Below are positions 3,019-36,026 of a stretch of DNA of 36,991 bases, one piece after another. Position 1 is the first letter of the stretch; the number at the start of each line of letters is the position of its first letter. Position numbers and translations under genes: made by a program. The notes under the pieces were generated by a model. It was not told the origin of the DNA. It was given only the letters and a program-made list of their open reading frames with translations, and did no database searches. Source of the DNA: Bacteroidaceae bacterium (GTDB taxonomy: Bacteria; Bacteroidota; Bacteroidia; Bacteroidales; Bacteroidaceae). The stretch is from contig JAFZWK010000031.1 of NCBI GenBank assembly GCA_017617335.1, positions 1 to 36,991 on the forward strand, in the 5' to 3' direction.

Positions 3019-3084
3019 CAACGTGTTGTCTTTGCAATCTCAACGTGTTGTCTTTGAGGTTTCAACGTGTTGTTCCGATGTTGC
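3019..3084. repeat. 22-bp phased repeat array, locus A (3 units)
   Basis: Units begin at 3019, 3041 and 3063, exactly 22 bp apart. The first two share CAACGTGTTGTCTTTG; the third keeps CAACGTGTTGT and then diverges. The core ACAAC-GT-GTTGT is a palindrome interrupted by two central bases. The array sits 22 bases beyond the stop codon of the minus-strand gene at 3107-3955. The same unit recurs at about 7.6 and 36.0 kb. Confidence 0.85.
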
Positions 3085-3106
3085 CAAAAAGATGTCTTGG
3101 TTCGCT

Positions 3107-3955
3107 CTATCTGTTTCCGTTGGCTATCTGGCTGCTGATGATGCGGCTCATGAGGGTTTGGCCATCGTTCACCCGCTCCATTATCTGCCAGCTGGAGGTG
3201 TTCTCTTTGCGCATTTCCATAGCGGCAACGTCCTTAGAGATCCACTTGACGGCATGCGTCTCATTGCCCAGCGTGAGGGAGTTCTTGTCTGTGCAGCCTC
3301 CTTTCATGACTTGGCCACCGGCATTCTTATCCACAAGGACATAGACGATGCTCGAGGGAGCGATGGTAAAGTATCTTCCCGCGTATTTGCTCGTTTCGTA
3401 ATTGGCCTTCAGGGTCTTCACTTGCTTCTTTGCTCCTTTCAGTTCATCCAGCATGCCGAGTATGCGCCAGGTGCCGAGCAAGGGGTTGCTGGAGTCGATG
3501 CTGGGTGTGGTGGTCAGGGCCTCGAAGACGGGTCGCGCCTCACTTGAGTATTTGTCAGCCTCGTATTTCTCTGTGCACCAGTTGTTCTCAGGGAAAATGA
3601 GGTGGTTGGAAAACTTGCTCCACCACTTCATGGAGAAATGATGTGAATCGCTGTCGAAGATCTTGATGCTCTGGTCGTTTTCATCCGTGGGCTCTTCGCC
3701 TGTATAGTTGAAAATCTTGCCTTTGTCGTTGTCGTGGAGGGAGAAGTTGCCGGTTCGCTGCATGAAGAGAGAGAGAGTCACTTCGTCCGTACATATTTTA
3801 TATTGGTCAAAGGGAGCGTTCACTTCGCCCGCTCTGCCTATGATGGTCATCAGTTTGTAGATGCCTCGCGGATTCTCCGTCTGGGCGCTGGCTGCAAGTG
3901 AAAGGGTGACAAGCGCGATTGCTGCCAGTTGTTTCAATAGAGATGTCTTTTTCAT
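3107..3955 (-). CDS. Exported two-domain lipocalin-like (DUF4488-type) protein
   Basis: The start at 3955 is chosen because it gives a clean signal peptide (MKKTSLLKQLAAIALVTLSL, then AASAQ); the open frame extends further upstream but that part has no such signal. The 282-aa product seems to contain two related halves of about 110 residues, 25-140 (RGIYKLMTIIGRAGE...) and 160-275 (LLGTWRILGMLDELKG...). Each opens with a G-(I/T)-(Y/W) strand and ends in a strand of the WQIMERV type, a pattern resembling DUF4488 or lipocalin-like beta-barrels of Bacteroidales. No catalytic residues are evident; ligand binding in the periplasm is a guess. It is divergent from the metalloprotease-like gene at 4082, and the 22-bp repeat array follows its stop. 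The family assignment is moderate. Confidence 0.6.
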   Translation of the reverse strand: MKKTSLLKQLAAIALVTLSLAASAQTENPRGIYKLMTIIGRAGEVNAPFDQYKICTDEVTLSLFMQRTGNFSLHDNDKGKIFNYTGEEPTDENDQSIKIFDSDSHHFSMKWWSKFSNHLIFPENNWCTEKYEADKYSSEARPVFEALTTTPSIDSSNPLLGTWRILGMLDELKGAKKQVKTLKANYETSKYAGRYFTIAPSSIVYVLVDKNAGGQVMKGGCTDKNSLTLGNETHAVKWISKDVAAMEMRKENTSSWQIMERVNDGQTLMSRIISSQIANGNR

Positions 3956-3993
3956 AATCAACGCTTTTAGGTTAGTATTTGTTGTTTTGGGAG

Positions 3994-4001
3994 CAAATAT
4001 A
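3994..4001 (-). promoter_or_regulatory. -7 element upstream of the lipocalin-like gene
   Basis: On the minus strand TATATTTG matches TAnnTTTG about 39 bases before the ATG at 3955. No clear TTTG was found at -33, so this is a half-site call. Confidence 0.4.
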
Positions 4002-4054
4002 TGCATTTTTCTGCTGATTCTTGGAAGGATGGAGGGAAATATAATTAAAATGTG

Positions 4055-4062
4055 TAATTTTG
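4055..4062 (+). promoter_or_regulatory. -7 element upstream of the 1152-aa protein gene
   Basis: TAATTTTG fits TAnnTTTG and lies 19 bases before the ATG at 4082, followed by GC as at most start sites in this window. No good -33 partner is visible. Confidence 0.45.
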
Positions 4063-4081
4063 CAGAAAAATAGGACGCTAT

Positions 4082-7000
4082 ATGAAGAAAACAAGCATGA
4101 TGCTTTTGCTCCTGGCAATGGGCCTGATGAACATCAAGGCGCAGCAGGACGTGACGAAATACTATCTGGTAAACTACGGCTTCGACGAAGGTTTCAACTA
4201 TAAGGCTGGGCAGACGACAGCGGTGGCTCAGGAGATTCTGGAGATAGATGGATGGACGCAAGGTTTCACCCACGACTATACCATCGCCGGCATTTATGAA
4301 TTCGGCTTTCGAGGCACATTCAACGGCGCTCGTGTGCCTACCCAGGGCTACGATGGCGAGGCAGGAGGCGGACTGGCTCTCTCGACAGGTTGGGGCATGG
4401 AGTTTGCCTATTCTCAGGAAGTGACTTTGCCTGCTGGAACCTACACGATCAATGTACCTACCTACAACGGTTGCGACAAGACGGCATCCTCTTCTCTGCT
4501 GGCTTGGAAACCCTCGTCAGGTGCTACTGTGAAGTCCACGTTAAGCAGCTACAAGGCGAACGCATGGACGCTGGACAAGATTTCTTTCCGCCTGACAAAG
4601 ACGACCAAGGGACAGATCTGCATCGGAATGAAGGCGGCAGAGAACGGAAGTGCCAACTCGGCGAAGCTGGTGATTGACTACGTGCAGATCATCGGGCAGG
4701 ATATGGCTGTGGACAAGGGAACCTTAGAGGCTGACCTCACGACGGCAAACAAGCTTTATGGCGATGGGACGGGTAACGATGCGGAAGCTTTAAAGGCTGC
4801 CATCGAGACGGCTCAGGAGACGATGAACGACGAGGCTGCCCAGGTGATGGAGGTGCTGGAGGCTCAATACGTTCTCGAGCAAGCCATCAATCAGTATCGA
4901 CAGAAGAATGCGTCAGCGGACAACCCTCTGGACCGCACGGAATACATCCGAAATGCCTCGTTCGAGATGAATAATTTCACAGGTTGGACAAGCGCGAGCT
5001 TCTCTTTGCAGAACAATACTTCTTTCGCTCGCAAGAAAGGTTCGTACTATATCGAGAAATGGGTGAACCAGGGCACGAAGGTGGGGAATGCAAGCGTGCG
5101 TCAGACTTTGAAGAATCTGCCAAACGGGAAGTACCGCTTGACGGTGGCTGCCCAGAATCTCAACCAGCAATCGACATCATCGCGTTGCAAAGGTGCCTAC
5201 ATCTTCGCAGGTGATCAGCAAAAGCCTGTCTATACGCCTTCTGATTATTCTGTCGACTTCACCAGCATCTCAGGTGAGGTGGAGATAGGTTTCGTGGCTG
5301 AGAACGCCACAGGTAACTGGCTGGCATGCGACAACTTCCGGCTCTATCTGATAGGTTATGTCGACCAGCAGGCGATGATAGACGAGTTGGCACGTCTCAT
5401 AGTCAATGCTGAGGAGTTGACGGGTGGATTGATGTCGGCTGAGGCAAACGAGGCTCTGGCAGCAGCTTTGGAAACGGCTCGCTCGATGAGCATAGAGAGC
5501 AGCGAGTCAGACATCAGGACAGCCACCATGACCTTGACTTCTGCCATCTGGAAAGCGCAGCAGAGTAGGGAGCGATGTGATCTTCTGCAAAGCGAGACAG
5601 CTACCGCTCAAGCCCTCTTGAGCAAGCACATGGGTAAGGCTGCAGAGGAAGCCTTGCAAAGTGCGATTGGCCAGGCAAATGCCATCAATTCCACCACTAA
5701 AGAGGCTGTCATCAATTCCACCATTACAGCCCTCGAGAAGGCTACGGAGGACGCGCAGGCAAGCATCGCCATTTACTTGGCTCTCGAGAAGGAGATAGCA
5801 GCGGCGAACAAGATCTACAACGAAACGCTGAATGGCGCAGAAGACTTGATGGCTGAGATTACCAAGGCTCAGGAAATCTACGACACGTGCCAGGCAACAG
5901 ACGTTGAGGTTGAGGCCGAAACGGCTTCACTCTCGCGTGCCCAACTCGCCTTCAATCTCGCCAATGCGACACCTGGAAGCGGAGCGGCTCCCCAAGTGAA
6001 GAGTACAAACCACTACGTGCCGACAGGTGCCACGCAAGCCTTGATGAGAGCCACGTTCAGCGGTTCAAACATCTTGGAGCGAGGCATTTGCTGGAGCACG
6101 GAACACGATCCTACCGTCCTAGATTCTCGAACCACGTCGTACTATTCCGTGAGTGGCCAGATCTACCATCTGACGGGACTTGATCCCGCCACCGTTTACT
6201 ACCTGCGGCCCTACGTGATGAACCGCACCTATCAAGTGGCTTACGGAGATGAGGTGAAGATTGTCACGCACCCCAAGGGAAACTGCTCATGGTCTTGGGA
6301 TAATGGTGCTCCAACAGCCGAAGCGAATGAGCGTTGCAGCAACGCCATAAAGGAAACCATCGATTATTTCAACGAATGGACAGGCATCAGGGGATTTACC
6401 CTGAGTGGTCATTATGGAAGCGGAACGCCCACGGCTGATTGCAGCTATGGAGGCTACATGCGCATTGGACCCAATGCAGCCTATCAGGCTATCGGAACGG
6501 TTATTCACGAGACAGGTCACGGCGTGGGAGTAGGAACCCATTGGCGCTGGTATTCATGCAGCGACACACGTGAGAACACTACCTACGGCAAGTGGCTTGG
6601 CAGAGAGGCAAACCAGATGCTTCAGTTCCTCGAGAATAAGGAAGGGAATTCCAATTGTTACATGCTGGGTGATGGAGTGCATGGATGGGGTCACGAAGCC
6701 ACCTACGACTGGTTCGTCAACGGAGCTGACAAGGACATGCATTTGCCCATCCAGTACATCGGAGGATGTTGTCTCCTCTATGCCCTCTTCATCGACGGCT
6801 TGTGTCCAACGTCCAGCTACCAGAATGGATTGGCAGGCTATACTTACAACTTCGATAGCAACACGAAATACTATCTCATGCCCAAGAGCGAAGAATGTGG
6901 ATTGGGCGACGCACTTCTCTGTCAGCGTTCATCGTCGATAGTCGCCTGGCAACCCATGATCCTGTCAGGTGAGGAGATAGGCGACGAGGCGGCATGGTAC

Positions 7001-7540
7001 ATCGATTACCTTCCCTCTCAGGGTTATTACACTTTCCGTAATGCGGCGACAGGAAAATATCTGACCCATTCGACGAGTAGCCAGAACGTGTCGCTCAAGA
7101 CGGTTCCTAATGGGCGGAATGTGGTCGCGACGGAATATTTCCAATTAATGCCTGATCGCACAGACGTCACTTTGGGAACAGGTTCAGAGACCATCAAGAC
7201 GCACGGATATTGGTTCACCTGGAGCAGCAACGGAAACAAAGCTATGCATGCAGTCGCGTCATCGGCCTCAGACGGTGGGCTGGTCAATCAGGCAACGTTC
7301 GACTACTCGGACAAAGCCACCGCCCAGCAATGGATAATCTTTTCCGAGGAAGAACTCAAAGCCTATCAGGCACGTGTTACAGCTATCGGCCAGATCCGCA
7401 TGACTGATGACGAGCAGTCTGACTCACTCGATCCGGAAGCCGTTTATTCCATCGATGGCAAGCGTCTCTCACGTCCCCAGAAGGGCTTCAACATCATTCG
7501 TCATAAGAACGGAAAAGTGAGCAAGAACCTCGTCCCATGA
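4082..7540 (+). CDS. Secreted multidomain HExxH metallopeptidase-like protein with beta-trefoil and sorting-type tail
   Basis: The 1152-aa product begins with a signal peptide (MKKTSMMLLLLAMGLMNIKA). By eye the order is: a carbohydrate-binding-like beta domain (about 25-205), a FIVAR-type helical segment (213-275), a second beta domain opening with NASFEMNNFTGW (285-430), alanine/glutamate-rich FIVAR-like helices (435-630), an Fn3-like domain (637-735), a catalytic-looking domain (740-960), a ricin-type beta-trefoil (968-1100) and a C-terminal tail with YSIDGKRL (1118-1152). The central domain carries HETGHGVGVGTH (His809, Glu810, His813, His820), a zinc-site motif like metzincins but with the third His one residue later than HExxHxxGxxH. 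Cleavage of host or plant glycoproteins at the cell surface is plausible. The peptidase family was not identified. Confidence 0.7.
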   Translation: MKKTSMMLLLLAMGLMNIKAQQDVTKYYLVNYGFDEGFNYKAGQTTAVAQEILEIDGWTQGFTHDYTIAGIYEFGFRGTFNGARVPTQGYDGEAGGGLALSTGWGMEFAYSQEVTLPAGTYTINVPTYNGCDKTASSSLLAWKPSSGATVKSTLSSYKANAWTLDKISFRLTKTTKGQICIGMKAAENGSANSAKLVIDYVQIIGQDMAVDKGTLEADLTTANKLYGDGTGNDAEALKAAIETAQETMNDEAAQVMEVLEAQYVLEQAINQYRQKNASADNPLDRTEYIRNASFEMNNFTGWTSASFSLQNNTSFARKKGSYYIEKWVNQGTKVGNASVRQTLKNLPNGKYRLTVAAQNLNQQSTSSRCKGAYIFAGDQQKPVYTPSDYSVDFTSISGEVEIGFVAENATGNWLACDNFRLYLIGYVDQQAMIDELARLIVNAEELTGGLMSAEANEALAAALETARSMSIESSESDIRTATMTLTSAIWKAQQSRERCDLLQSETATAQALLSKHMGKAAEEALQSAIGQANAINSTTKEAVINSTITALEKATEDAQASIAIYLALEKEIAAANKIYNETLNGAEDLMAEITKAQEIYDTCQATDVEVEAETASLSRAQLAFNLANATPGSGAAPQVKSTNHYVPTGATQALMRATFSGSNILERGICWSTEHDPTVLDSRTTSYYSVSGQIYHLTGLDPATVYYLRPYVMNRTYQVAYGDEVKIVTHPKGNCSWSWDNGAPTAEANERCSNAIKETIDYFNEWTGIRGFTLSGHYGSGTPTADCSYGGYMRIGPNAAYQAIGTVIHETGHGVGVGTHWRWYSCSDTRENTTYGKWLGREANQMLQFLENKEGNSNCYMLGDGVHGWGHEATYDWFVNGADKDMHLPIQYIGGCCLLYALFIDGLCPTSSYQNGLAGYTYNFDSNTKYYLMPKSEECGLGDALLCQRSSSIVAWQPMILSGEEIGDEAAWYIDYLPSQGYYTFRNAATGKYLTHSTSSQNVSLKTVPNGRNVVATEYFQLMPDRTDVTLGTGSETIKTHGYWFTWSSNGNKAMHAVASSASDGGLVNQATFDYSDKATAQQWIIFSEEELKAYQARVTAIGQIRMTDDEQSDSLDPEAVYSIDGKRLSRPQKGFNIIRHKNGKVSKNLVP

Positions 7541-7554
7541 TGGAAGCAAAAACA

Positions 7555-7642
7555 CAACGTGTTGTCTTTCCAATCACAACGTGTTGTCTTTCCCAACTCA
7601 ACGTGTTGTCTTTCCCAACTCAACGTGTCGCCTCCTTACATA
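7555..7642. repeat. 22-bp phased repeat array, locus B (4 units)
   Basis: Units start at 7555, 7577, 7599 and 7621, each exactly 22 bp apart and in the same orientation. The first three share CAACGTGTTGTCTTTCC; the last is degenerate (CAACGTGTCGCCTCC). The array begins 15 bases after the stop of the 1152-aa protein gene and ends about 60 bases before the -33 element of the tRNA promoter. Confidence 0.9.
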
Positions 7643-7702
7643 TAAAAAATAAGGTAAGGAAAAGGGACGGAATGAAAATTTTGAAAAAAAACGAGGAAAT
7701 GT

Positions 7703-7733
7703 TTTGCGGGGAATAAAAAAAGCCTTACCTTTG
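7703..7733 (+). promoter_or_regulatory. Promoter of the five-gene tRNA cluster
   Basis: TTTG (7703-7706), a 19-base spacer and TACCTTTG (7726-7733) match the Bacteroidota promoter consensus. The sequence after it, TTTGCACTCGC, is repeated at the promoter of the second tRNA-Asp gene (11249-11259). The first tRNA starts about 50 bases downstream. Confidence 0.75.
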
Positions 7734-7786
7734 CACTCGCAAAACGAAAAAAGATGGTTCTGGCGTGATTCATCTGTCTTGCGAAG

Positions 7787-7861
7787 GGGCGTTTAGCTCA
7801 GCTGGTTCAGAGCATCTGCCTTACAAGCAGAGGGTCGGCGGTTCGAATCCGTCAACGCCCA
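7787..7861 (+). tRNA. tRNA-Val (anticodon TAC)
   Basis: Acceptor arms GGGCGTT and AACGCCC pair fully, the D stem is GCTC/GAGC, and the anticodon arm TCTGC-CTTACAA-GCAGA carries TAC. The T arm GGCGG-TTCGAAT-CCGTC closes with one G-T pair. Discriminator A; CCA is not encoded. It is the first of five co-directional tRNA genes. Confidence 0.95.
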
Positions 7862-7877
7862 CGTATTTGTTGAGAAT

Positions 7878-7951
7878 GGCTCCTTAGCTCAACTGAATAG
7901 AGCATTTGACTACGGATCAAAAGGTTGTGGGTTTGAATCCCGCAGGAGTCA
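7878..7951 (+). tRNA. tRNA-Arg (anticodon ACG)
   Basis: Acceptor arms GGCTCCT and AGGAGTC pair with one G-T. The anticodon arm TTTGA-CTACGGA-TCAAA carries ACG, whose first base is normally deaminated to inosine to read CGN codons. The T arm contains TTTGAAT. CCA is not encoded. Confidence 0.95.
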
Positions 7952-7976
7952 CCCACCTGATGAAAGTCAGTGGTTC

Positions 7977-8059
7977 GGGTAGGTAGGTAAGTGGTTAAAA
8001 CGGGCAGACTGTAAATCTGTTGCCTCACGGCTTCGGCAGTTCGAATCTGTCCCTGCCCA
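7977..8059 (+). tRNA. tRNA-Tyr (anticodon GTA)
   Basis: This is a class II tRNA of about 83 nt with a long variable arm. Acceptor arms GGGTAGG and CCTGCCC pair with one T-G. The anticodon arm CAGA-CTGTAAA-TCTG carries GTA, and the T arm is GGCAG-TTCGAAT-CTGTC. Discriminator A; CCA is not encoded. Confidence 0.93.
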
Positions 8060-8064
8060 CAAAC

Positions 8065-8140
8065 GCGGAAATAGCTCAGTTGGTAGAGCACAACCTTGCC
8101 AAGGTTGGGGTCGCGAGTTCGAGTCTCGTTTTCCGCTCCA
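8065..8140 (+). tRNA. tRNA-Gly (anticodon GCC), CCA encoded
   Basis: Acceptor arms GCGGAAA and TTTCCGC pair perfectly, the D stem is GCTC/GAGC, and the anticodon arm CAACC-TTGCCAA-GGTTG carries GCC. Discriminator T at 8137 is followed by an encoded CCA (8138-8140), which the other tRNAs here lack. Confidence 0.95.
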
Positions 8141-8145
8141 TATAC

Positions 8146-8220
8146 GGTGCGTTAGTTCAGTCTGGTTAGAATACATGCCTGTCACGCATGGGGTCACGGG
8201 TTCGAGCCCCGTACGCACCG
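8146..8220 (+). tRNA. tRNA-Asp (anticodon GTC), copy 1
   Basis: Acceptor arms GGTGCGT and ACGCACC pair perfectly and the discriminator is G, as expected for tRNA-Asp. The anticodon arm CATGC-CTGTCAC-GCATG carries GTC. It is the last gene of the cluster and is followed at once by a terminator. A second copy lies at 11272-11345. Confidence 0.95.
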
Positions 8221-8226
8221 CAAGAG

Positions 8227-8252
8227 AGAGAGTCCAAGAGGCTCTCTTTTTT
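8227..8252 (+). terminator. Intrinsic terminator after the tRNA cluster
   Basis: AGAGAG (8227-8232) pairs with CTCTCT (8242-8247), the stem extended by CC/GG around an AAGA loop with one bulged T, followed by a T run (8247-8252). The same hairpin follows the second tRNA-Asp gene. Confidence 0.8.
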
Positions 8253-8333
8253 GTTTTCAATCATTGCTGCCTGTCCCACGTTCCTGAAAGAGGTGACGAG
8301 GAGAAAAAGGGAGTGATAAAAAGGTCTAAGGGT

Positions 8334-23685: not shown

Positions 23686-23747
23686 AACAATATCTTTTTA
23701 ATACTCGAGTGAGGTTCTTGGCTATCCATGAACTCTCAAAAGTTGGA

Positions 23748-24845
23748 TTAGTACGTGAATTCCAGGTCGTAATCCTTGCCTCCTGCTCCAACGCGGAAGG
23801 AATGGACCTGTTTGCTCTTCAGTTTGATGGCTATCACATCGAAGCATAGAGATGCATTCAGGTCAAAGTCGATGTGTGTCTGTCCAGGAAGCATCTGCTT
23901 GGGATCCACGAAGCCCAGCCCCTGAGTGATGTAGTAGTTCACGCCATCATCATTTATGTGCTGATTGCAATGTGTGTCACCGCATAGGAGACCTACCAGC
24001 CGACCCTTGCTGCGCTTAAAGTTCCATTCCAGTCCCAGTTCTCCACCCTTGCGACGATTCACGAAGTCGGCTAGCAGATGGCACAGCACCTCACAGGTGG
24101 GTCGCTTGGCATCCTTCACGCTCATCCAGCGTCCGATGGGGTGGGGCATGTAGTGGGACAAGGTCACAATATCTGTTCCCTCGCTCGTATTCTTCAATAC
24201 GCCGGTAAGCCACTCCAGTTGTTCATTATCGAAGGTATAGTAGTTTTCACCAAGCGTTTCCGTTCCCTCGCTGTTCAGGAAAATGACGCGGACATGTTTT
24301 TCAGGTATGTCATAGTAGCCGTATGCCTTGTCCTCTACGATATGCAGTTTGCCGCGGGAATATCGTTCGCTTGGTTTCTGGAATGTGTCCGAGAGGAACT
24401 GACTGTTGAAGTGTCGTCCGCCTCCGCCATCCCAGTCGTGGTTGCCAGGAGCGTAAATCCATATACCCGGGAAAAGTCCCATCTGTTCGCGCGTTTGCAT
24501 GACCATCTTATCTGCTGCTTCAGAACTGTTGTGCGCTTCTCCTGCATTCAAGCCGATGTCACCCAGGTTAGCCATAAAGTCGTAGCCGAAGAGACGGTCC
24601 GTGGCTGTCATATAGCCGAAATGCTTATAAGTTTCACTTCTGTCGCTACCCCATCCACAGTGTACGTCGGTAAGAATGGGGAAAACGAGAGTTTCCTCAC
24701 CGTTTTTCCAGTTGATGTAGCGCATGAATGTTTCTCGTGCCTGAGGCATCACGAAATCAGGAACGCTTTGGGCCGAACAGATTCCTGTGGAGAGGAAGAC
24801 CAATCCTGCAATCAGTTTTGACAGGGAAAAACGAATGTTAATCAT
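23748..24845 (-). CDS. Exported calcineurin-type metallophosphoesterase
   Basis: The start at 24845 is preferred because it gives MINIRFSLSKLIAGLVFLST followed by GICSAQ as a signal peptide; the frame also has an ATG 14 codons earlier. In the 365-aa product the metal-binding blocks of calcineurin-like phosphoesterases appear in order: LTDVHCGW with Asp60 and His62, LGDIG, PGNHDWDGGGG with Asn135 and His136, LSHYMPHP, and CGDTH with Asp290 and His292. Such periplasmic enzymes remove phosphate from diverse esters. It sits between two putative glycoside hydrolases in the same unit (gaps of 58 and 62 bases), which suggests a substrate such as a phosphorylated glycan, but this is inference. Confidence 0.85.
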   Translation of the reverse strand: MINIRFSLSKLIAGLVFLSTGICSAQSVPDFVMPQARETFMRYINWKNGEETLVFPILTDVHCGWGSDRSETYKHFGYMTATDRLFGYDFMANLGDIGLNAGEAHNSSEAADKMVMQTREQMGLFPGIWIYAPGNHDWDGGGGRHFNSQFLSDTFQKPSERYSRGKLHIVEDKAYGYYDIPEKHVRVIFLNSEGTETLGENYYTFDNEQLEWLTGVLKNTSEGTDIVTLSHYMPHPIGRWMSVKDAKRPTCEVLCHLLADFVNRRKGGELGLEWNFKRSKGRLVGLLCGDTHCNQHINDDGVNYYITQGLGFVDPKQMLPGQTHIDFDLNASLCFDVIAIKLKSKQVHSFRVGAGGKDYDLEFTY

Positions 24846-24903
24846 AATATCTTGTCTTTTTTGTACGTGACGTACATTTTCTAACAATCTTTCTTGTACT
24901 CAA

Positions 24904-26895
24904 CTATTTCGCGAATGTAGGTAATGGAGGTGTGTCCAAGGAAATCTCGTTGTTCATGGGAGCATCCAGAGGGGCACCTGTCAGTTTATGATTCTGAGTC
25001 ATCATTCCGAAGACAGGACCATTCCAGATGCTTACGATAGTTCCCAGACATCCACGGTCTGGCATCTGCTGAGCCAGGATACGAAGCATACGTTCATATC
25101 CGGCGATACACTTTTCACATATCTGGTTCACCTTCTTCCGATCGGTGGGAGCCACGGGGTTGTTTTTCTCATGGGGCACTTCCTTGAGTGCTAACCCATC
25201 GTGGATACAATCCAGATAGAGCTTGGAGCACAATACGCGGTTACCCAGCAGACTCAGGTATTCTTTTGCTGCTTCTGTCGTTGCGTTGTTATACAGGCTG
25301 GTGAGCATCTCTCCCACCTTCAGGAAAGCATCCGACGAGTACTGTACCTCCTCTGCCTTATAGCCGGTATGCTGGCCTTCGTTCAGCCAAAAGTCTATGG
25401 CCGCAAAACCGATATTCCCATGATGGTCCACATCAAAAGCGTGCAGCTCCTGCATCGCATGCTGCATATCCAGGAAGGCCTTTTCATCTTCTATGCCTAA
25501 GCGCTGGGCGTATTCCTTATAGAAATCATCCTGATGACGATTCTTCATGAGCGTGGCTTCTGCAGCATATCGGAAGGAGGTGCGGTTTTCAGCGGTGCGC
25601 CAGTGATTGAACAGAAGGCTGTGGTGTTGAACATCGGGTGCGGTCTCGTCCATCTGCTTTAACAGGTCATCAATTCCTTCCACATGGTTCTGTTGGATGT
25701 ACATCTGTCCATCAAACTCTACCCATGAATACAATTCCGTCCATTTCAGGTCCTCAGCGTTAGTGATGAAGTAAGGGTATGAACCTGCCACACCGCGGCT
25801 TGCATACTGCGAGAGGACTGCGATGTGATGCTCGGGAAGTATCTGGCGGGCATGCTGGAAGAGGTCACCGATACGATGGCGGAGAACACAATAGATACCG
25901 AGTTTTAGTTCTTTCACACGCCCCTGGAATGCAGGATCGGCCTCCAGAGCCTTGATGGTAGCTGCTGCGGTGTCTATCTGTTGGGTGGCGTATGGCAAGT
26001 CATCATTCCAGTCTCCCATTTCTTCCGTGATGAATTCCAGATCGTCAATGGGATAGTTGTCTGTGAGGATGTAAGCCAGCTTCTTCGTCTGTTCTACGGT
26101 AAAGTGACGATTCTCGCAGCTGAACTGCACCTTCAATCCCAGCTCCTTGGCGGTTGTTATCACCTCGCGCATCCAGTTCATAGCAAACTCGCTGCGCTTG
26201 GCCTTGTCGTTCCATACAGCCTCAGCCCCTGGGATGCAGAAGATGGAGTCGTTCGTATCCTTACACAGGTCTTTGAGGAAGTCCCATTTATCGCAGCGGT
26301 GCATCATGCCGTAGAAGAAGCTTCCTGCATAGTTCATCTCGCCTGTCACATCCTCAGCGTACCACTGGTAGGGATAGCTGTGGATGGTAAGTTTGTTGAA
26401 ACGCATGCGCACCATGTTCTCCAGATACTCGCGTACTTGAGGAATAGGATAAGAGGAGATGTCCATGCTGAAGTTGACATGCTGACGAATGCCTCGCCAC
26501 CTGACGTGAGGCGTGACGATGCTGTCAGTTTCCTCCACCTTCTCCCAATCCACACTCGCGGGCAGGATGGGACCAGTAATGTCGAAGGTAATGCCCAGCA
26601 CCTCGCAGAAGGTGTAAAGGGCGTGAAGCGTTCCCACAGCATCCGACGAGGTAAGCGTGAGCACGTGGTTCTTGTCGAACTGATAGCCGAACTGCCCCAG
26701 TTCGTCCATAGAAGGATCATACTTGTATCGTACCCTCAATGCCTTTCCTTGCAGAGGGGTAATCTTTTGCAACTCGGAGGTCCATAGCATTGCCTCCTCT
26801 TCTGCATGAGCGAAAGAGGGATCTTCTTTGAGCGCGGAACCAGAACAGGCGCACAGGAATAGAAGTGCGAGGACAGGGAAAAGGTTCTTTTTCAT
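24904..26895 (-). CDS. Putative glycoside-hydrolase lipoprotein
   Basis: The 663-aa product has a lipoprotein signal (MKKNLFPVLALLFLCACSGS) with Cys17 as the probable lipid-bearing residue. Residues about 30-125 look like the small alpha/beta domain found before the barrel in alpha-glucuronidases and GH20 enzymes (LTLTSSDAVGTLHALYTFCE). From HVRWRGIRQHVNF (130-142) a TIM-barrel-like region follows, with VRMRFNKLTIHSYPYQWY, LKVQFSCENRHF and EFITEEMGDWNDDL. The C-terminal 220 residues are helical. No family number can be assigned with confidence. It is the first gene of a three-gene unit. The upstream TATCTTTA (26936-26929, minus) is a near-consensus -7 element. A surface-anchored enzyme on a host or plant glycan is the best inference. 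Confidence 0.6.
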   Translation of the reverse strand: MKKNLFPVLALLFLCACSGSALKEDPSFAHAEEEAMLWTSELQKITPLQGKALRVRYKYDPSMDELGQFGYQFDKNHVLTLTSSDAVGTLHALYTFCEVLGITFDITGPILPASVDWEKVEETDSIVTPHVRWRGIRQHVNFSMDISSYPIPQVREYLENMVRMRFNKLTIHSYPYQWYAEDVTGEMNYAGSFFYGMMHRCDKWDFLKDLCKDTNDSIFCIPGAEAVWNDKAKRSEFAMNWMREVITTAKELGLKVQFSCENRHFTVEQTKKLAYILTDNYPIDDLEFITEEMGDWNDDLPYATQQIDTAAATIKALEADPAFQGRVKELKLGIYCVLRHRIGDLFQHARQILPEHHIAVLSQYASRGVAGSYPYFITNAEDLKWTELYSWVEFDGQMYIQQNHVEGIDDLLKQMDETAPDVQHHSLLFNHWRTAENRTSFRYAAEATLMKNRHQDDFYKEYAQRLGIEDEKAFLDMQHAMQELHAFDVDHHGNIGFAAIDFWLNEGQHTGYKAEEVQYSSDAFLKVGEMLTSLYNNATTEAAKEYLSLLGNRVLCSKLYLDCIHDGLALKEVPHEKNNPVAPTDRKKVNQICEKCIAGYERMLRILAQQMPDRGCLGTIVSIWNGPVFGMMTQNHKLTGAPLDAPMNNEISLDTPPLPTFAK

Positions 26896-27234
26896 ATCAA
26901 TATTGATTTAATGTGTTGTCTATGATAATGTAAAGATATACCGATATATAATTCAACAGTATACCAGTCCATAAGACTCCTGCAAATATACAAAAATCCT
27001 TTTAGATGAATGGCTTGCTAAACCTATAATCTTCCAATATGATACCGAAATCGTTCAGACCTATCCGAGAAATGCCTCAGACAAGCCATTTCATTGCATC
27101 GACAGGCCTTCTCCAACACGTTGAAAACGTCGTCTCTTAGGAAAGAGCGGTTCTGCAAGCGGCTGATTATCAGATGGGGGATTGAGTGGCGAGGAGCGAG
27201 GCTCTTGTCTAAATCGGACTCCGCCTGCGACTGA

Positions 27235-29626: not shown

Positions 29627-32600
29627 TTAACGGACTACTTTCTTGCCGTTGATGATATACACACCCTTGGGCAGTTGACCTTGCAGGCCACTGTCGCCTG
29701 TGATCTTGCGTCCCTGCATGTCATAGATGCCTGGCACAGTCATCACGTCTGATGCCATGCGGTTCACACGGGTTGCTTCATCACCGATGGGATCCACGTT
29801 ATGTCCATTGGCATCCGACAGGCGGATGCCACCGATTTTTGCATTGCCGATATGCAGCAGGGCGTGCTTGCCTGGTTCCAACGTCTTTCCGTTCATGTTG
29901 TAGGCCAAGAACAGATAGTCGTTGTCAGACAGCCATGCTGAGGTCTGTTCGAAGCCATTCAAGCCTTCTGCAACTCTTACTTCATCCTTCTGACTTCTTC
30001 CGTCCAGCGCCAGCTGCACCTGTACTCCAGCCAAAGCAACGGGACTCTCCACGTATAATGTCCCATTCTCGATTGTGTAGGTTGCAGTAGCCATTGCCGC
30101 ACTTGTGGCTGTTGCATCGGAAGGGAATATTTTTTTGATGATACCAATGACATCTAGGATGTCGATACTGAGGTCTGCGTTCATGTCAGCTGCTTCGAAG
30201 ATGAAGGGCTTCGGCTGCTGACCGGCAGCATAGTTCACGGTGGTGATCACGTCTGCAACATCCACGTCGCCACTACCATTGGCATCACCCAGTTCTGACG
30301 TCTGCGGTGTAACAGCTACCACGTTTGACATATCGTACTCCTGCAGGTCTGTGCTCAATACCTTATACATATAATAATAGGTGGTGCCAGGCACTACATC
30401 ATAGTCAGTATATGCTGTAGTTTCAATATCAACAATCTCCCTGTTGATGCAGATGGTATCAGCTTTGCCGGCATCATCTACAGTATATCGGTAAATGTTG
30501 AATCCCATTGCATCCTCAAAGTCATTGTTCGAGTTATTCCATGTCAGCTCTACGCGGCCAAGTCCAGCCTCGGCGGAAAAGCCTGTGGCCATTGAGCCAG
30601 CAGCCTGAATGTTGATGTTGAAGCGTGTTTTCTCGTATGGACACTCAAAGAATTCATTGTCTTCTGCCCCCTGAACATAAATGCGATTCACGCCATCGCT
30701 CATTGTTTTTCCGTTGATGGTCTTATAAGCAGTATAAATAGTTCCTTCTTCATTCCAGCTTCCATCCTCAGCTACGGAATGTTGTGTATATGGCTCTCTG
30801 ACACCAAATGAAATCTGGGGAGCCACCTCCTTATTCATCGGGCGATTGAAGTACACTTCAAACTTATGCCGTCCTACTCCAAGCGGAGCCAAGTCTTCAT
30901 ACTCATCCTGTGCATCCTTACCATTTACCACTACTTTCCATACGATGCCATGAGCTTCGGCGTAGGGACGAGATGGTAAATTGCTAAGATCAATTACTCC
31001 AAATCCACTAGATCCATTTCCCATTTCATATATGTGTGGTCGAATGAGGTCCTCTCGATTTGATCCTAAATAGGAAGGTGTTTCAGATTTTTCAATAAAT
31101 TCAGCTTTACATTGAAGAGAATATGTCCCATTTGTTGCTGAGCAATTATGATTGTTAAAATAATTGTTGCAGTTAAGAGCATTATAGGAGGGAAGAGAAA
31201 GGATATTATAACTTAATACATTATTTATAATGTTGGAGTGTTTACAAGTTTCTCTTAATCCACCGACACTAGATATAAAGCTATCATTAGAAATTAGACC
31301 AGTCCATGTATTTCTTATTCCATCCATGTAACCAGAAACAGTTTTCGCCATAATTATACAATCTTCCATATAAGGCAATGATGTGCCATCATATCCAACT
31401 CTGCAATTTTCAATCTTGCAATATGAAATAGTGTCACCGTTAGTATTGATAATCCTCCAGGGCTTATTTTCATCATGAGCAACAAATTCTATTGGTTTTT
31501 GTGGTGTTCCTCTTGCAACTAATTTTCCAAAACAACCAATTTTTTTATCATACGCAAATTCTATACGGGTTCCTGGCTCAATTGTCAGTTTCGCACCCTC
31601 CATGATACCAAGATTGTCATTGATAAGATAAACGTGATCTGCAGTGAGGGTTCGGTCTTCTGTGATGAGACCGCTAATCTTCACCATATTGTTGACCATC
31701 ACATAGACATCTTGAATAAAGCTTTCTGCGCTTTCATGGTAGCTGACCTCAAGGATAAACTTGATACGAGTGGCATCTCCAATGTTATTTGCAAATGTTA
31801 CCCTAATAGGAGTTGCTGCTTCGGCTCTACCATATGCGGAAAGGCTCTGTCCAAAAGGTACTGAAGGATTATCTATCTCCACGAAACTTGTATATACTGG
31901 ATCAACTGTTAAGTTTAATTGGATGTCTGTCGCATCTGCCCATGTATTACGTAAGACAGGAGTAAATAGAATCGTCTCACCTACATCTACTTGACCGTCT
32001 ATATAGTTGTTACCCTTGACGTTATCATCAACGCTCAATGACACCAAGTCAATCTTTGGCATTCGGGGTGTGTCATCACTATAAATTTTGGCGAAGTCTG
32101 CTTTCAGGTGAATCAAATCTCCATAGAGCACATCCTTCGACGGATAATCCTTTACCATTTGCAGGGCAGAGACAGCACCAGCGAAGAGTGGTGTTGACAT
32201 GGAAGTTCCACTCAGTTGATTATATTGGCCATTAGGTAGTGTACTATAAATGCCAACACCCGGCACTTGAACCTCGTAATTGCGTCCGTCAATACCATCT
32301 TCACTGTAGATTGGCCCATCGGGATCGTAGTTACTAAAGCTGGCTCTTTGTAATTTGGAATTACTTGCTTCTACTCCTAATACAAGATAATATGCAGCGG
32401 GATAAAGTGTTCCATAAGTTGGTCCTATATTATAATAAATATCGACTCCATTGTTTCCAGCGCTTGCCACAAGAATTGCTGTCTGATATGCTCTATCAAG
32501 AGCTTCCTTCATCGTGTTGCTCAAAGAGGGTGAACCGAAACTCATACTAAGCACATCTGCACCATTTTCAGCAGCATAAACTATACCCCGGGCTATGGTA

Positions 32601-33580
32601 GCATGGTCTCCGATTCCTTTGTCAGACATTATCTTGATAGGCATAATCAATGCCAAAGGATTGGCGCCAATAACACCGATGTTATTGTCTGCTGCTGCTG
32701 CAATACCAGCACAGTGTGTGCCGTGACCATTGCGGTCGCTCAAGTCATAATAGTCTTCAACGAAATTCCAGCCGTATTTGTCATCCACTATTCCATTATT
32801 GTCGTCATCAAAGGTAGTTTCTCCTTCAACTTCAGCTGTATTAGTCCAGATATTATCTGCCAAGTCGGGATGATTGATATCTACACCCGTATCAAGGATA
32901 GCAATAACAGGACGTTTTTTGTTGATGATGGGTTTATCCCACAAGGTATGAATATTCTGTTGGGTAATCCCATATTGCTGGGAATACAGAGGATTCTGGC
33001 TTGGGTTAAGACAGATGACGCTATCTGTCGTCTCTGTCAATACGGGTGCTTTTGCCCTTGCGCTTTGTGGAGACTGTTCCTCATAGAGTCCTTCTGGCAC
33101 ATCGGCAGTAATGTAAGCCAAGTAGTTTGGCTCGGCGTATTCCACATCAGACATGTTTCCAAGACGTTTTATCAGTTGCATGGTGGAATCTGAATTCTCG
33201 GATGTCATTTTCAGCAAGAAGATTTTATCAAGATTCTGCTCTTTTACAATTGTTCCATTAGGAGCACGCTTTGCTCTCAACTTGGCAGCAGGCTTTGCTT
33301 CCTCGGCGGGGAAAAGCTTCTCCATATCATCAACATTAAATTCCTGTAGCAATTTATCGATAGCGTTGATGCTGGCAGTGCGAAATTTCCCTTGAGCATT
33401 GCGACGTACTTTAACGCCACTCTGGTCTTTAAATTTTACCAGTACCTGCCCAGGCACAAAGTCCTGAGCAAAACGCTGATTTACTTTATTCACTCCATCC
33501 TCATTGTCATTGCTGACTTGTGCGAGCATTGGCAAAAGCAAACATAATAAACATGTCGCTAAGGTTAATAGCCGTTTCAT
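29627..33580 (-). CDS. Secreted subtilisin-family protease with dockerin-like module and sorting tail
   Basis: The 1317-aa product has a signal peptide (MKRLLTLATCLLCLLLPMLA) and a propeptide-like region with VPGQVLVKFKDQSGV (40-150). The S8 catalytic domain has all three residues in context: Asp230 in AILDTGVDINHPDL, His286 in NGHGTHCAG, and Ser460 in SGTSMSTPLFAGA. A beta-rich middle follows, including a likely beta-helix (about 640-860, GIMEGAKLTIEPGTRI), then an Fn3 domain (about 1000-1094) and a dockerin-like pair from Asp1099 (DANGSGDVDVADVITTVNYA; DMNADLSIDILDVIGIIKKI). The C-terminus has IYDMQGRKI and PKGVYIINGKKVVR, a type IX-secretion-like tail. The region from about 31.0 to 32.9 kb is visibly more AT-rich than the two ends. 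It is the first gene of a pair with the cohesin-type protein. Confidence 0.88.
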   Translation of the reverse strand: MKRLLTLATCLLCLLLPMLAQVSNDNEDGVNKVNQRFAQDFVPGQVLVKFKDQSGVKVRRNAQGKFRTASINAIDKLLQEFNVDDMEKLFPAEEAKPAAKLRAKRAPNGTIVKEQNLDKIFLLKMTSENSDSTMQLIKRLGNMSDVEYAEPNYLAYITADVPEGLYEEQSPQSARAKAPVLTETTDSVICLNPSQNPLYSQQYGITQQNIHTLWDKPIINKKRPVIAILDTGVDINHPDLADNIWTNTAEVEGETTFDDDNNGIVDDKYGWNFVEDYYDLSDRNGHGTHCAGIAAAADNNIGVIGANPLALIMPIKIMSDKGIGDHATIARGIVYAAENGADVLSMSFGSPSLSNTMKEALDRAYQTAILVASAGNNGVDIYYNIGPTYGTLYPAAYYLVLGVEASNSKLQRASFSNYDPDGPIYSEDGIDGRNYEVQVPGVGIYSTLPNGQYNQLSGTSMSTPLFAGAVSALQMVKDYPSKDVLYGDLIHLKADFAKIYSDDTPRMPKIDLVSLSVDDNVKGNNYIDGQVDVGETILFTPVLRNTWADATDIQLNLTVDPVYTSFVEIDNPSVPFGQSLSAYGRAEAATPIRVTFANNIGDATRIKFILEVSYHESAESFIQDVYVMVNNMVKISGLITEDRTLTADHVYLINDNLGIMEGAKLTIEPGTRIEFAYDKKIGCFGKLVARGTPQKPIEFVAHDENKPWRIINTNGDTISYCKIENCRVGYDGTSLPYMEDCIIMAKTVSGYMDGIRNTWTGLISNDSFISSVGGLRETCKHSNIINNVLSYNILSLPSYNALNCNNYFNNHNCSATNGTYSLQCKAEFIEKSETPSYLGSNREDLIRPHIYEMGNGSSGFGVIDLSNLPSRPYAEAHGIVWKVVVNGKDAQDEYEDLAPLGVGRHKFEVYFNRPMNKEVAPQISFGVREPYTQHSVAEDGSWNEEGTIYTAYKTINGKTMSDGVNRIYVQGAEDNEFFECPYEKTRFNINIQAAGSMATGFSAEAGLGRVELTWNNSNNDFEDAMGFNIYRYTVDDAGKADTICINREIVDIETTAYTDYDVVPGTTYYYMYKVLSTDLQEYDMSNVVAVTPQTSELGDANGSGDVDVADVITTVNYAAGQQPKPFIFEAADMNADLSIDILDVIGIIKKIFPSDATATSAAMATATYTIENGTLYVESPVALAGVQVQLALDGRSQKDEVRVAEGLNGFEQTSAWLSDNDYLFLAYNMNGKTLEPGKHALLHIGNAKIGGIRLSDANGHNVDPIGDEATRVNRMASDVMTVPGIYDMQGRKITGDSGLQGQLPKGVYIINGKKVVR

Positions 33581-33674
33581 AATAATTTATGGTATAAGTT
33601 TGATAATTCATTATGAAGCCAACGAACACCCTAAAGCTGGCAATTAGCAAATTGATATGTAAAGCTTATGATAC

Positions 33675-33944
33675 AAAAAAGGCGTAGGTGTCTGTTTCTC
33701 TGCCTATCCTCGGGACATGGGCCTTCGCATTGCCTCAACCATAAGGATAAGCAACGCAGTTTGCCCACGCCAGTACGAACTATATAAAATACGGTATATA
33801 GATACGCACCACGCAGACGTCTCGTTGCTATGCCCCGTTATGGTTTTTGAAGTTGCGAAGTTCATGTCCCAACGTGACAAACGTTCGAAAACGTCTTTCT
33901 CATATATAAGACAGCCCGCCGCCCATTGCTGAACTAACTGACTG
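33675..33944 (-). ncRNA. Rod-shaped structured RNA, probably 6S RNA (Bacteroidales-1-like)
   Basis: On the minus strand a consensus promoter is followed by about 270 bases that fold into one long imperfect hairpin. Nested complementary pairs from outside in are GGCG..GG with CC..CGCC, GGGACATG with CATGTCCC, CTTCGCA with TGCGAAG, AACCATAA with TTATGGTT, GCAACG with CGTTGC, and CTATATA with TATATAG at the tip. The 3' end is CCTACGCC followed by six T residues (33680-33675). A long rod with internal bulges and an intrinsic end is what 6S RNA looks like; in Bacteroidales this is the former Bacteroidales-1 motif. 6S RNA binds sigma-70-type RNA polymerase. The RNA itself is well supported; the 6S identity is an inference. 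An 82-codon frame across it is rejected as coding. Confidence 0.65.
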
Positions 33945-33949
33945 CGATG

Positions 33950-33979
33950 CAAAGATACAAATAATATTTGTTACGCAAA
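33950..33979 (-). promoter_or_regulatory. Promoter of the structured RNA
   Basis: On the minus strand TTTG (33979-33976), 18 bases, then TATCTTTG (33957-33950). The -7 element is a perfect match and the spacer is one or two bases short of usual. The predicted start is near 33944. Confidence 0.6.
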
Positions 33980-34079
33980 GACTTCTGCGACAAATTTTTC
34001 CTTCCTTTTCTCGTTTTTCGACGTTTTTACTTCATCAACCCTCCTGCCTCTCTGCGAAGTTTCTTATGAACTCAAAAAT

Positions 34080-34228
34080 ACTCTACACTCTACACCAGTA
34101 CCCTGTAATTCGTTGTAGAACAGTGATATACGTAGATGTAGAGTGCCTGATGACTCTACACCCACTCTACACCCTCATTTCCTGTTGGTAATTAAAGAGT
34201 TAAATGCCTCTGGTGCAGAGTGTAGAGT
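34080..34228. repeat. Cluster of ACTCTACAC motifs in both orientations
   Basis: Exact ACTCTACAC copies lie at 34080-34088, 34087-34095 (overlapping by two), 34153-34161 and 34164-34172. The reverse complement GTGTAGAGT is exact at 34220-34228, with one-mismatch copies at 34213-34221 and 34137-34145. That gives seven sites within 150 bp, in the gap between the structured RNA and the gene at 34412. The direct pairs and the later inverted pair could form a cruciform or an RNA hairpin. Confidence 0.75.
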
Positions 34229-34362
34229 GTTTTTCATTTCGTTGAAACTCACTTCACTCTCTTGACGGAGAACCATTTCCAGCCTGCTCCTTCTTGTTAG
34301 TGCGAAAAGGATGTGTTTTAAATTTTTCTTTGAAAAGTCTGTTGTTTTTCATGTTTTATTCA

Positions 34363-34370
34363 TAAATTTG
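34363..34370 (+). promoter_or_regulatory. -7 element upstream of the DUF4832-like gene
   Basis: TAAATTTG fits TAnnTTTG and lies 41 bases before the ATG at 34412. The upstream half is unclear; GTTG at 34341-34344 is 18 bases away. Confidence 0.4.
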
Positions 34371-34411
34371 TGTTCGAAACGAATCATTCTGTATCCCAAA
34401 AGCCTAAAACA

Positions 34412-35905
34412 ATGAAACACAAACTGCTAACCATCCTGCTGACGACGGTCTGTTTCGCACTCCATGCCAAGGATGTCACTACAGAAATTCAGCCCAATAC
34501 GACTCGCGTCTTGCGCAATCCGCTAAATGGCTGGGTCATGTATATGGGCAGGACGTGGGACGAGAACTTCTGGACGGAACTTGGCTACGACCAACTAAGT
34601 GTAGGAGACTCCATGGTACGCGTGTCTGACTATGCCAATACCTGTTATGTGCGCACTTCATGGAGTTCTTTGGAGCCGGAAGAGGGTCACTACGTATGGA
34701 CCGACCCTGATTCACGCATCAGCCGACTTTTCCGTAGTGTGCTGGACCGTCACATGAAGTTGGCGTTCCGTATCGTTGTCGATAGCCGTGATCAGGGGCA
34801 GAACACACCTTTGTATGTCAAGGAGGCTGGGGCGAAGGGATTCCAGGATCCCAACAATCCGAAGATATGGTCGCCCTATCCTGATGATCCCATCTTCCAG
34901 CAGAAGTATGCCAGGTTCATTGCCGCTCTGGCGACTGCCTTCAACGACCCTGACAAGGTGGACTTCATCGATGCCTACGGTCTGGGCAAGTGGGGCGAGG
35001 CTCACGGCGTCAGATACGGTGATTACAGCAAGAAAGAGGAGGTGTTCCAATGGATTACCGATGTGTACACCCGTACCTTCACTAGAATACCCCTTGTCAT
35101 CAACTACCACCGGCTGGTGGGCGACACAGTCAGTTGGGCTTCTCCCCACAGCCGCAGCCAGGCACTCCTCGAGGAAGCCATCCGCAAGGGATATAGCCTG
35201 CGCCACGATGCTTTCGGTATGACGGGCTACTACGAAACGTGGGAAAAGGACTTTGCCAGGAAATGGAACTACCGCCGTCCCATTATCATGGAGGGCGGTT
35301 GGATTACGGGTGCCCATCACCGCTATTGGCGCGATCCCAGCAACCGCTATCGTGAGGGACATCCGGAAGATGTGCGCCAGGGGGAGTATCAGGAAGCCAA
35401 GGAGGGGCACGTGAACATGATGGATCTCCGCGTAGGCGACGAGACACGCTCTTGGTTCGGTACTTCCTTCCACCTTATCAAGCAATTTGTGGCTGAAGGT
35501 GGCTATCGCCTCTACCCATCTTCTATTACTCTGCCTGACCGCCTATCAGCAAAAAAGACGGACGCTACCCTTCGCTCCGTATGGAACAACCTGGGTTGGG
35601 GCTATTGCCCAACCAACATCCCGCAATGGAACCAGAAATACAAAGTGGCTTACGCTCTGTTGCAAGGAGATTCTGTCAGGAAAGTATTCGTCGATACAAA
35701 GAGTGACCTCTCCACTTGGCTGCAGGGAAATCCTACAACATGCACGCTGCCTGTCAGCACCGAAGGACTTTCCAAAGGCACCTACCAATGGGCTGTGGCG
35801 CTGGTGGATGTGACTCGCGGCAACACCCCCGCCCTGGAGATGGCAGTCGATGAGCAGTTGCTGCAGAACTGCTGGCTGCTACTCAACAAGGTAAGGATAA
35901 AATAA
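34412..35905 (+). CDS. Exported DUF4832-like TIM-barrel protein
   Basis: The ATG at 34412 gives a signal peptide (MKHKLLTILLTTVCFALHAK); the frame extends 14 codons further up without one. In the 497-aa product, RVLRNPLNGWVMYM is followed by TSWSSLEPEEGHYVWTD, the beta-strand/helix pattern that opens GH42- and GH2-like barrels. Further barrel blocks are KLAFRIVVDSRDQG, VDFIDAYGLGKWGEAHG and PIIMEGGWITG, where GKWGEAHG has the Gly-x-Trp-Gly-Glu form of an acid/base loop (Glu in GEAHG) and EGG could supply the nucleophile. The C-terminal 130 residues look like a beta-sandwich. This matches DUF4832-type proteins, whose function is not established. A secreted glycosidase is the inference. It is convergent with the Big2 protein gene across the third repeat array. 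Confidence 0.6.
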   Translation: MKHKLLTILLTTVCFALHAKDVTTEIQPNTTRVLRNPLNGWVMYMGRTWDENFWTELGYDQLSVGDSMVRVSDYANTCYVRTSWSSLEPEEGHYVWTDPDSRISRLFRSVLDRHMKLAFRIVVDSRDQGQNTPLYVKEAGAKGFQDPNNPKIWSPYPDDPIFQQKYARFIAALATAFNDPDKVDFIDAYGLGKWGEAHGVRYGDYSKKEEVFQWITDVYTRTFTRIPLVINYHRLVGDTVSWASPHSRSQALLEEAIRKGYSLRHDAFGMTGYYETWEKDFARKWNYRRPIIMEGGWITGAHHRYWRDPSNRYREGHPEDVRQGEYQEAKEGHVNMMDLRVGDETRSWFGTSFHLIKQFVAEGGYRLYPSSITLPDRLSAKKTDATLRSVWNNLGWGYCPTNIPQWNQKYKVAYALLQGDSVRKVFVDTKSDLSTWLQGNPTTCTLPVSTEGLSKGTYQWAVALVDVTRGNTPALEMAVDEQLLQNCWLLLNKVRIK

Positions 35906-35933
35906 GCTCAAAACATTGATGTAACGCAAGAAA

Positions 35934-35975
35934 AAAGACAACACGTTGAAACCTTGAAGTCAACGTGTTGTCTTT
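35934..35975 (-). terminator. Inverted-repeat terminator made of two repeat units
   Basis: AAAGACAACACGTTGA (35934-35949) and its exact reverse complement (35960-35975) form a 16-bp stem around a 10-nt loop. On the minus strand the stem runs into a six-T stretch (35936-35931), so it should end the transcript of the Big2 protein gene. On the plus strand only three T residues follow. It overlaps the first two units of array C. Confidence 0.7.
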
Positions 35976-36026
35976 GCTATTTCAACGTGTTGTCTTTGCC
36001 ATCACAACACGTTGTGTTTTTCGACT
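35939..36026. repeat. 22-bp phased repeat array, locus C (4 units)
   Basis: Units start at 35939, 35961, 35983 and 36005, exactly 22 bp apart. The middle two share CAACGTGTTGTCTTTGC with loci A and B. The outer two have the core as CAACACGTTG: the same palindromic arms CAAC/GTTG with the central GT replaced by AC, so their core reads in the opposite orientation while the 22-bp register is kept. The array lies between two convergent secreted-protein genes. Confidence 0.85.

Follow-up and report, generated by a model that had tools for sequence, protein, structure and literature searches.

Phased palindromic arrays in genomes of Bacteroidales and their putative link to HU-HIG proteins

Introduction

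The 36,991-nucleotide stretch of DNA analyzed here (hereafter the window; positions 1 to 36,991 of contig JAFZWK010000031.1, GenBank assembly GCA_017617335.1, from a Bacteroidaceae bacterium) carries three dispersed arrays, A to C, of a short palindrome that recurs every 22 bp. What are these arrays, and which protein, if any, reads them? In our judgment they are probably "address arrays", sites to which a self-regulating protein of the HU-HIG family would bind cooperatively. This answer draws on the exact phase and the copy number of the arrays, on the conservation of cores and phase at orthologous places, on the private arrays found in the leaders of HU-HIG genes, and on cores that leader and dispersed arrays have in common in several genomes.

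Results

The arrays in the window and in its genome

All eleven units listed by an initial annotation of the window lie at their positions, exactly 22 bp apart within each locus (Table 1), and a motif scan allowing up to three mismatches gave 12 matches in the window against 1.06 expected, a number reached by none of 100 shuffles. Each 22-bp step consists of a 10-bp core and a 12-bp variable linker. The constant 15-mer that the same annotation had proposed is too long: CAACGTGTTGTCTTT is complete in eight of the eleven units, and the core, exact or as a variant, is all that remains at 3063, 7621, and 36005. The TCTTT part of the 15-mer is therefore not constant. The two units of array C described as having a flipped center are the outer ones, with AC for GT and the phase kept. 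The left end of this array is A-rich and its right end T-rich. All three loci had been said to adjoin the 3′ ends of genes for secreted or surface proteins. Gene 3′ ends do adjoin array B, 14 bp past a gene with a signal-like start, and array C, between two gene 3′ ends; array A lies between divergent genes according to the gene caller used here, which did not accept the open reading frame (ORF) at 3107–4273. To make adjacency to the 3′ ends of genes for secreted proteins a rule would go too far.

The window's genome (G000; a draft of 2.37 Mb in 73 contigs, 62% complete) contains the exact 15-mer 59 times and the exact core CAACGTGTTG 325 times (0 and 4 times, respectively, for the reversed controls), as well as 157 pairs of cores at 22 bp (none for the control). 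Among 181 exact cores in 80 clusters of the examined G000 stretches, the spacings of up to 100 bp are 22 bp (95 times), 44 bp (five times), and 66 bp (once), with no others. Genome-wide, as the initial annotation had suggested checking, the motif is enriched over the control and its spacing is nonrandom. When variant cores are included (CRACRYGTYG, with up to two mismatches), 71 arrays of at least two units can be listed. Four units is the commonest size (32 arrays), and there are four arrays of two units, 20 of three, 12 of five, one of six, and two of seven. From the 325 cores and about 2.3 exact cores per cluster, we estimate a density of roughly one array per 15–20 kb. Many arrays have short inverted ends (AAAAAAGA...TCTTTTTT; GGGGG...CCCCC in the assembly JAGAAS), and long common flanks were not noticed on inspection by eye.

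Conservation at orthologous places

By means of both flanks, G000 arrays could be mapped onto stretches of the related genome G015 and of the assembly CAMKMK at 15 distinct places (16 rows), and at 11 of these an array is present on the other side. None was found opposite a five-unit array (L049), nor opposite two candidates in L064 and one in L066, each with two units and within a predicted gene. Over the 11 orthologous pairs, identity is 93.5% in the cores (400 cells; a value inflated by pairs that were found via exact cores on both sides), 58.6% in the linkers (348 cells), and 58.8% in the flanks. By position, core identity is 93–100% outside the center and 78–80% at the center, where it is lower because AC and GT sometimes swap. 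In the pair L093/L110, for example, the center is swapped and the phase kept. Five pairs come from G015 stretches picked regardless of arrays (window arrays A and B, L092, L093, and L094), and these have core identities of 0.90–1.00 and equal unit numbers. Whole-unit differences are seen in two pairs (L041/L144 and L059/L177).

The three arrays of the window illustrate this pattern. The G015 ortholog of array A (L241) has three units in phase, and that of array B has four units, with a core identity of 0.98 and a linker identity of 0.25. In the four-unit ortholog of array C, the order of the centers, AC-GT-GT-AC, is identical, and the final core is CGACACGTTG. The simplest account would be that selection keeps the cores and the phase of the dispersed arrays.

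Distribution among genomes

Among 139 genomes of the genus, the CAAC core is present in bulk in three: G000 (325 cores), G015 (474), and G122 (296). The remaining ones have 0–23 cores, and control counts are 0–12. The CAAC expansion belongs to one clade, because G122 and G015 are the nearest to G000 by aspartokinase-homoserine dehydrogenase (96% and 93% identity, respectively, and 87% for the next genome). An old order-wide repeat was rejected, as two cores at 22 bp occur only in G000 among 393 sampled genomes of the order. A phage origin was also rejected: a single viral contig has one core pair. The reversed control GTTGYRCAAC-N12-GTTGYRCAAC matched in G333 and G335 (2 and 3 times per strand), and these matches are perhaps 22-bp arrays with another core.

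The same step with the same or a nearly identical core occurs in other metagenome-assembled genomes (MAGs) of Bacteroidales, namely JAFRTJ, JAGAAS, CALUGY, CAMKMK, CAMYYY, DBYJ, JAFXXQ, and JAGCFO, in a scan of named genomes that covered at least 98 stretches and may have left out records of the window's own or very near genomes. Many of the array-bearing MAGs come from ruminants, and quite different linkers are found in several of these MAGs.

HU-HIG genes behind arrays

When 703 predicted proteins around arrays were compared, one family, HU-HIG, was found near arrays in three genera. The array lies 36–41 bp before the start of the HU-HIG genes L189, L136, L133, and L175. The initial annotation had proposed to look for a co-occurring DNA-binding protein, and the HU-HIG family is the candidate. 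The Pfam family HU-HIG (PF18291) is described as an HU domain fused to winged helix-turn-helix (wHTH), Ig, or Gly-rich parts. Against a cut-off of 26.2 bits, the protein of the window's own clade scores 68.8, L175 71.6, L189 68.2, L133 68.5, and L136 76.8. The structural model of L175 has a confident C-terminal winged helix, the feature of the wHTH subgroup; its HU part, clear by profile, is modeled poorly (mean predicted local distance difference test score of 48, from 4 sequences), and only the winged helix is taken from the model. With phmmer, the own-clade protein gave no match in the PDB and L175 gave weak matches to HU (best E 0.012). HU-family proteins are known mainly as weakly specific DNA benders. 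A 2017 paper by Burroughs and colleagues reportedly defined HU-HIG and may hold related remarks; no paper linking HU-HIG to phased arrays was found in a partial literature search.

In many HU-HIG leaders, palindromic cores recur about every two helical turns, and these cores differ between paralogs. Leaders of about 220 bp were scored by their best ungapped self-match over 44 positions at lags 12–48, relative to 60 shuffles, and lags of 21–24 bp and the doubles 42, 44, 46, and 48 were counted. A significant phased self-match, that is, the array at its own gene that one expects of an autoregulated DNA-binding protein, was found in 61 of 123 HU-HIG leaders (15/20, 20/57, 15/28, and 11/18 in the four sets), 35 of them at lag 22, versus 5 of 82 leaders of ordinary genes. 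Of these five controls, Pfam identifies two (L255 and L259) as HU-HIG genes, and a third (L254) has a copy of the L255 array, which leaves L252 and L257. Eight of the nine G531 leaders reach significance, with periods of 21 to 24 bp or double and with differing cores. In several genomes the leader and the dispersed arrays have a common core; G532 and G536 also have whole linkers in common between the two.

The 82 control leaders were taken from G050, G104, G091, G021, and G123, which have no CAAC arrays. As G091 has TCAC and CGAC arrays (see following), this control is not entirely free of arrays. It replaced an earlier one made up of 30 copies of one gene, for homoserine dehydrogenase, in which one leader was significant (at lag 21). 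Left out of the 123 were L405 and L406, whose leaders are too short, L401, which contains a stretch of Ns, rows of the same gene (L271, identical to L478; L482, to L438; L484, to L437), and near copies (L267, L278, and L294, of L266, L277, and L293). In G123, a 21-bp-step array of TTCCAAACTTTGGAA stands before an HU-HIG gene (L255:14732–14788) and before a D-Tyr-tRNA deacylase gene (L254:3953–4030).

Cores predicted from leaders

Two cores were read from HU-HIG leaders and then searched as pairs at 22 bp in the 139 genomes. TCACRYGTGA, read from G093 and G051, forms such pairs in 21 genomes (among them G099 with 40, G093 20, G057 19, G053 15, G087 14, G091 12, G102 12, and G051 8) and none in G000, G015, and G122; its reversed control gave 0 in all. 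CGACRYGTCG, read from G070 and G085, forms pairs in 18 genomes (82 in G096, 26 in G027, 22 in G085, only 2 in G070, and one each in G000 and G015), and its reversed control in one. Both predictions held: the leader-derived TCAC and CGAC cores form dispersed 22-bp arrays. By position, pairs lie 82–256 bp before HU-HIG genes in G053 (C131), G057 (C37), G087 (C23), and G091 (C15).

TCAC pairs are present in 17 of the 28 genomes in which the own-clade HU-HIG protein has a close homolog, versus 4 of the 108 others, at a cut-off (E below ~1e-41) that was chosen after viewing the list and among genomes that are related. At E 1e-6, no homolog of this protein was found in two near relatives, G050 and G089. 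G123 is absent from the genomes matching it and is probably the one unlisted genome without a match; other HU-HIG genes are present in G123, and these have a 21-bp core of their own.

HU-HIG genes of the window's clade

After removal of canonical HU, G015 has ten HU-HIG matches and G000 nine, almost identical in sequence and many of them cut by contig ends. Near-identical pieces stand at contig ends in G000 (L304, L306, L310, L312, L314, and L316) and in G015 (L309, L313, and L315); L308 (G000) is a canonical HU. The gene family seems to be multi-copy and to break assemblies. Six of its leaders, three each from G000 and G015, have TACCTTTG or a close form, which we take to be the −7 box of Bacteroidetes promoters, followed by in-phase CAAC cores. 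A leader resembling these stands at the end of a contig in the CAMKMK assembly (L149).

Gene context and other features of the window

Gene context was assigned with a simple home-made gene caller. The flanking genes are convergent for 16 of the 71 G000 arrays, co-directional for 27, and divergent for 11, whereas nine arrays lie within predicted genes and eight at ends of stretches; the array-free intergenic spaces of the same stretches (n = 27) are 5 convergent, 13 co-directional, and 9 divergent. For the arrays taken by themselves, the median distance is 55 bp to gene 3′ ends and 216 bp to gene starts. With 11 of the 54 classifiable arrays between divergent genes, their placement is not exclusively downstream, as it would be for intrinsic terminators. 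A plain promoter regulon was rejected: a TAnnTTTG box within 40 bp reading into the array accompanies 8 of 71 arrays, versus 44 of 1420 random positions. Several of these eight are HU-HIG leaders, and the box is near none of 32 arrays in JAFRTJ and one of 10 in the G015 stretches.

Other features of the window are given in Table 1. The tRNA genes start about 157 bp past array B. The segment that resembles G015 (L242) at 94% identity, with neighboring DNA at about 82–84%, has two large ORFs without a Pfam match and is possibly recently exchanged DNA.

Table 1. Position and composition of the arrays and of other features of the window
Feature	Position	Strand	Composition
Array A	3019..3072	+	three CAACGTGTTG cores, at 3019, 3041, 3063
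Array B	7555..7630	+	CAACGTGTTG at 7555, 7577, 7599; CAACGTGTCG at 7621
tRNA genes	7787..8221		five consecutive genes (Val, Arg, Tyr, Gly, Asp)
Segment similar to G015	23714..27144		two large ORFs
Array C	35939..36014	unassigned (.)	CAACACGTTG at 35939 and 36005; CAACGTGTTG at 35961 and 35983
Tandem repeat (contig end)	36481..36991		261-bp repeat coding group-2 bacterial Ig-like domains

Discussion

The initial annotation saw in the phased palindromes cooperative sites of a dimeric protein, and sequence comparison supports this, through the conservation of cores and phase and the arrays in HU-HIG leaders. One dimer would sit on each palindromic core, and the step of about two helical turns (22 bp, or 21–24 bp for other paralogs) would set the dimers on one side of the DNA, where a few aligned dimers could form one nucleoprotein patch. 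At the leader array, which in this clade follows a TAnnTTTG promoter box, the HU-HIG gene would probably be shut down when the protein is sufficient. At the dispersed arrays, often just past gene ends, the same protein would clamp or organize the chromosome or limit transcription, and different HU-HIG paralogs and lineages would use different cores. We infer the binding itself, its cooperative nature, the autorepression, and the part played by the dispersed arrays, which near gene ends may be chromatin-like or insulating.

Several observations weigh against a self-regulating HU-HIG protein as the reader of the arrays. The own-clade protein has no winged helix, and its leaders, which are mutual copies, are partly degenerate, with one exact CAACACGTTG each and variants at the other cores. 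In one of them (L272) the best self-match is at lag 20 and comes from another repeat; its score at lag 22 is 29, above the shuffle maximum of 27. G122 has arrays in bulk, yet only canonical HU genes passed the Pfam search there, and one match to the own-clade HU-HIG protein is listed (E 6e-23). By the score used, 62 of the 123 HU-HIG leaders lack such a phase (37 of 57 in one set), and the p-values of the leader and homolog contrasts are too small, leaders and genomes being related by descent; the homolog cut-off was also a late choice. The dispersed CAAC-type core is present in none of nine examined leaders of G531 (23 HU-HIG matches), and the exact CGAC core in none of six in G096 despite its 82 pairs; the single examined leader of G099 is not TCAC despite 40 pairs.

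Many dispersed copies with often inverted ends, expanded in one clade among 139 genomes, would also result from transposition of a miniature mobile element, either a miniature inverted-repeat transposable element (MITE) such as BrickBuilt or one of the sort of repetitive extragenic palindromes (REP) and bacterial interspersed mosaic elements (BIME), for which HU-HIG leaders were one landing place. At the site of one G015 array, the corresponding intergenic space of G123, a relative that is array-free, is much shorter. Comparison of G000, G015, and CAMKMK arrays with 17 stretches of relatives gave one empty site with both flanks, and no target-site duplication was seen in this sequence, which is too diverged to judge. 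Transposition does not predict that HU-HIG paralogs share a step and yet each have a private core, nor that orthologous arrays retain their cores and phase when the linkers drift, and we regard it as unlikely. A mobile origin of the dispersed copies is nevertheless compatible with HU-HIG binding.

The transcribed palindromes could instead work as RNA, folding in leaders and at 3′ ends into hairpins that terminate transcription in both directions or bind proteins. The smaller median distance to 3′ ends than to starts, the A-run and T-run ends, and the position of many HU-HIG arrays inside the leader agree with such a device, which we nonetheless judge quite improbable: adjacent cores have the same direction 133 times and the opposite one 53 times, contrary to stems between neighbors, a hairpin has no need of an exact 22-bp step, and a fifth or so of the classifiable arrays stand between divergent genes. 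Sites of a site-specific recombinase, with a palindromic core and a flippable polar central dinucleotide, would account for the AC or GT center of the CAACnnGTTG cores in G000 (171 of 175; AT once, GC never) and for its swaps between orthologs with the phase kept. We find them very hard to reconcile with JAGAAS, where the center is the symmetric GC in 45 of 49 cores, and with both flanks of orthologous arrays staying together, though pair finding required both flanks. The mobile element, the RNA device, and the recombination site each account for some of the observations but leave unexplained the paralog-specific leader cores and the two predictions that held.

If HU-HIG proteins do read these arrays, a wider picture can be sketched, on which we are considerably more tentative. 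Bacteroidales may have many paralogous autoregulated HU-HIG "chromatin" proteins, each reading its own palindromic address array. In some lineages one address, placed at well over 100 intergenic sites, would make up a sequence-coded chromatin or insulator layer, and the code would switch between species by joint change of leader and dispersed arrays. A large and little characterized family of gut Bacteroidales would thereby gain a function and a decipherable protein–DNA code, the paralog–array pairs would provide dozens of natural specificity variants for learning recognition rules, and a sequence-specific chromatin layer over intergenic regions would become testable in a bacterium. It would also account for a class of Bacteroidales intergenic repeats. 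We know of no repeat or nucleoid-protein family built as paralogous protein–array pairs. The finding could be new in kind; on a stricter view, it could be a variant of autoregulated proteins with operator arrays.

The absence of a known repeat family with this unit, noted by the initial annotation, agrees with a partial literature search, in which no matching named family and nothing relevant on such repeats in Bacteroidetes or Prevotella was found, and in whose papers the 12-mer CAACGTGTTGTC was not found. The MetJ met-boxes and the ArgR boxes are tandem operators of autoregulated proteins, and MatP and Noc are nucleoid proteins with dispersed sites. The working proposed here resembles them in its phased dimer sites, with one set at the protein's own gene and many elsewhere, and differs in that there are many paralogs per genome, each with its own core, and that cores differ in related lineages. 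REP and BIME elements are palindromes scattered over intergenic regions in a mosaic arrangement, many of them close to gene ends; the arrays are like them in these respects, and differ in their strict 22-bp step and their link to HU-HIG leaders.

BrickBuilt of Porphyromonas gingivalis, in the portion of its description considered here, is a MITE/minisatellite with a 23-nt unit without spacers, 1 to 22.8 units, 19 copies, and long leader and tail segments of up to 285 and 318 nt (PMC4596501). Like the arrays, it is dispersed between genes in Bacteroidales and made of tandem units that span about two helical turns, with a variable half and imperfect copies, whereas the arrays described here have a 22-bp step with a 12-bp linker and 2–7 units in G000. 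BrickBuilt_14 adjoins a gene named PF00216 DNA-binding protein (PMC4596501, Table 1). BrickBuilt might be another HU-linked array family. The multi-copy nucleoid proteins of P. gingivalis are mentioned without arrays in the part of PMC5771137 considered. The candidate partner of the arrays is itself, by profile, a member of HU-HIG (PF18291), within the HU/IHF superfamily.

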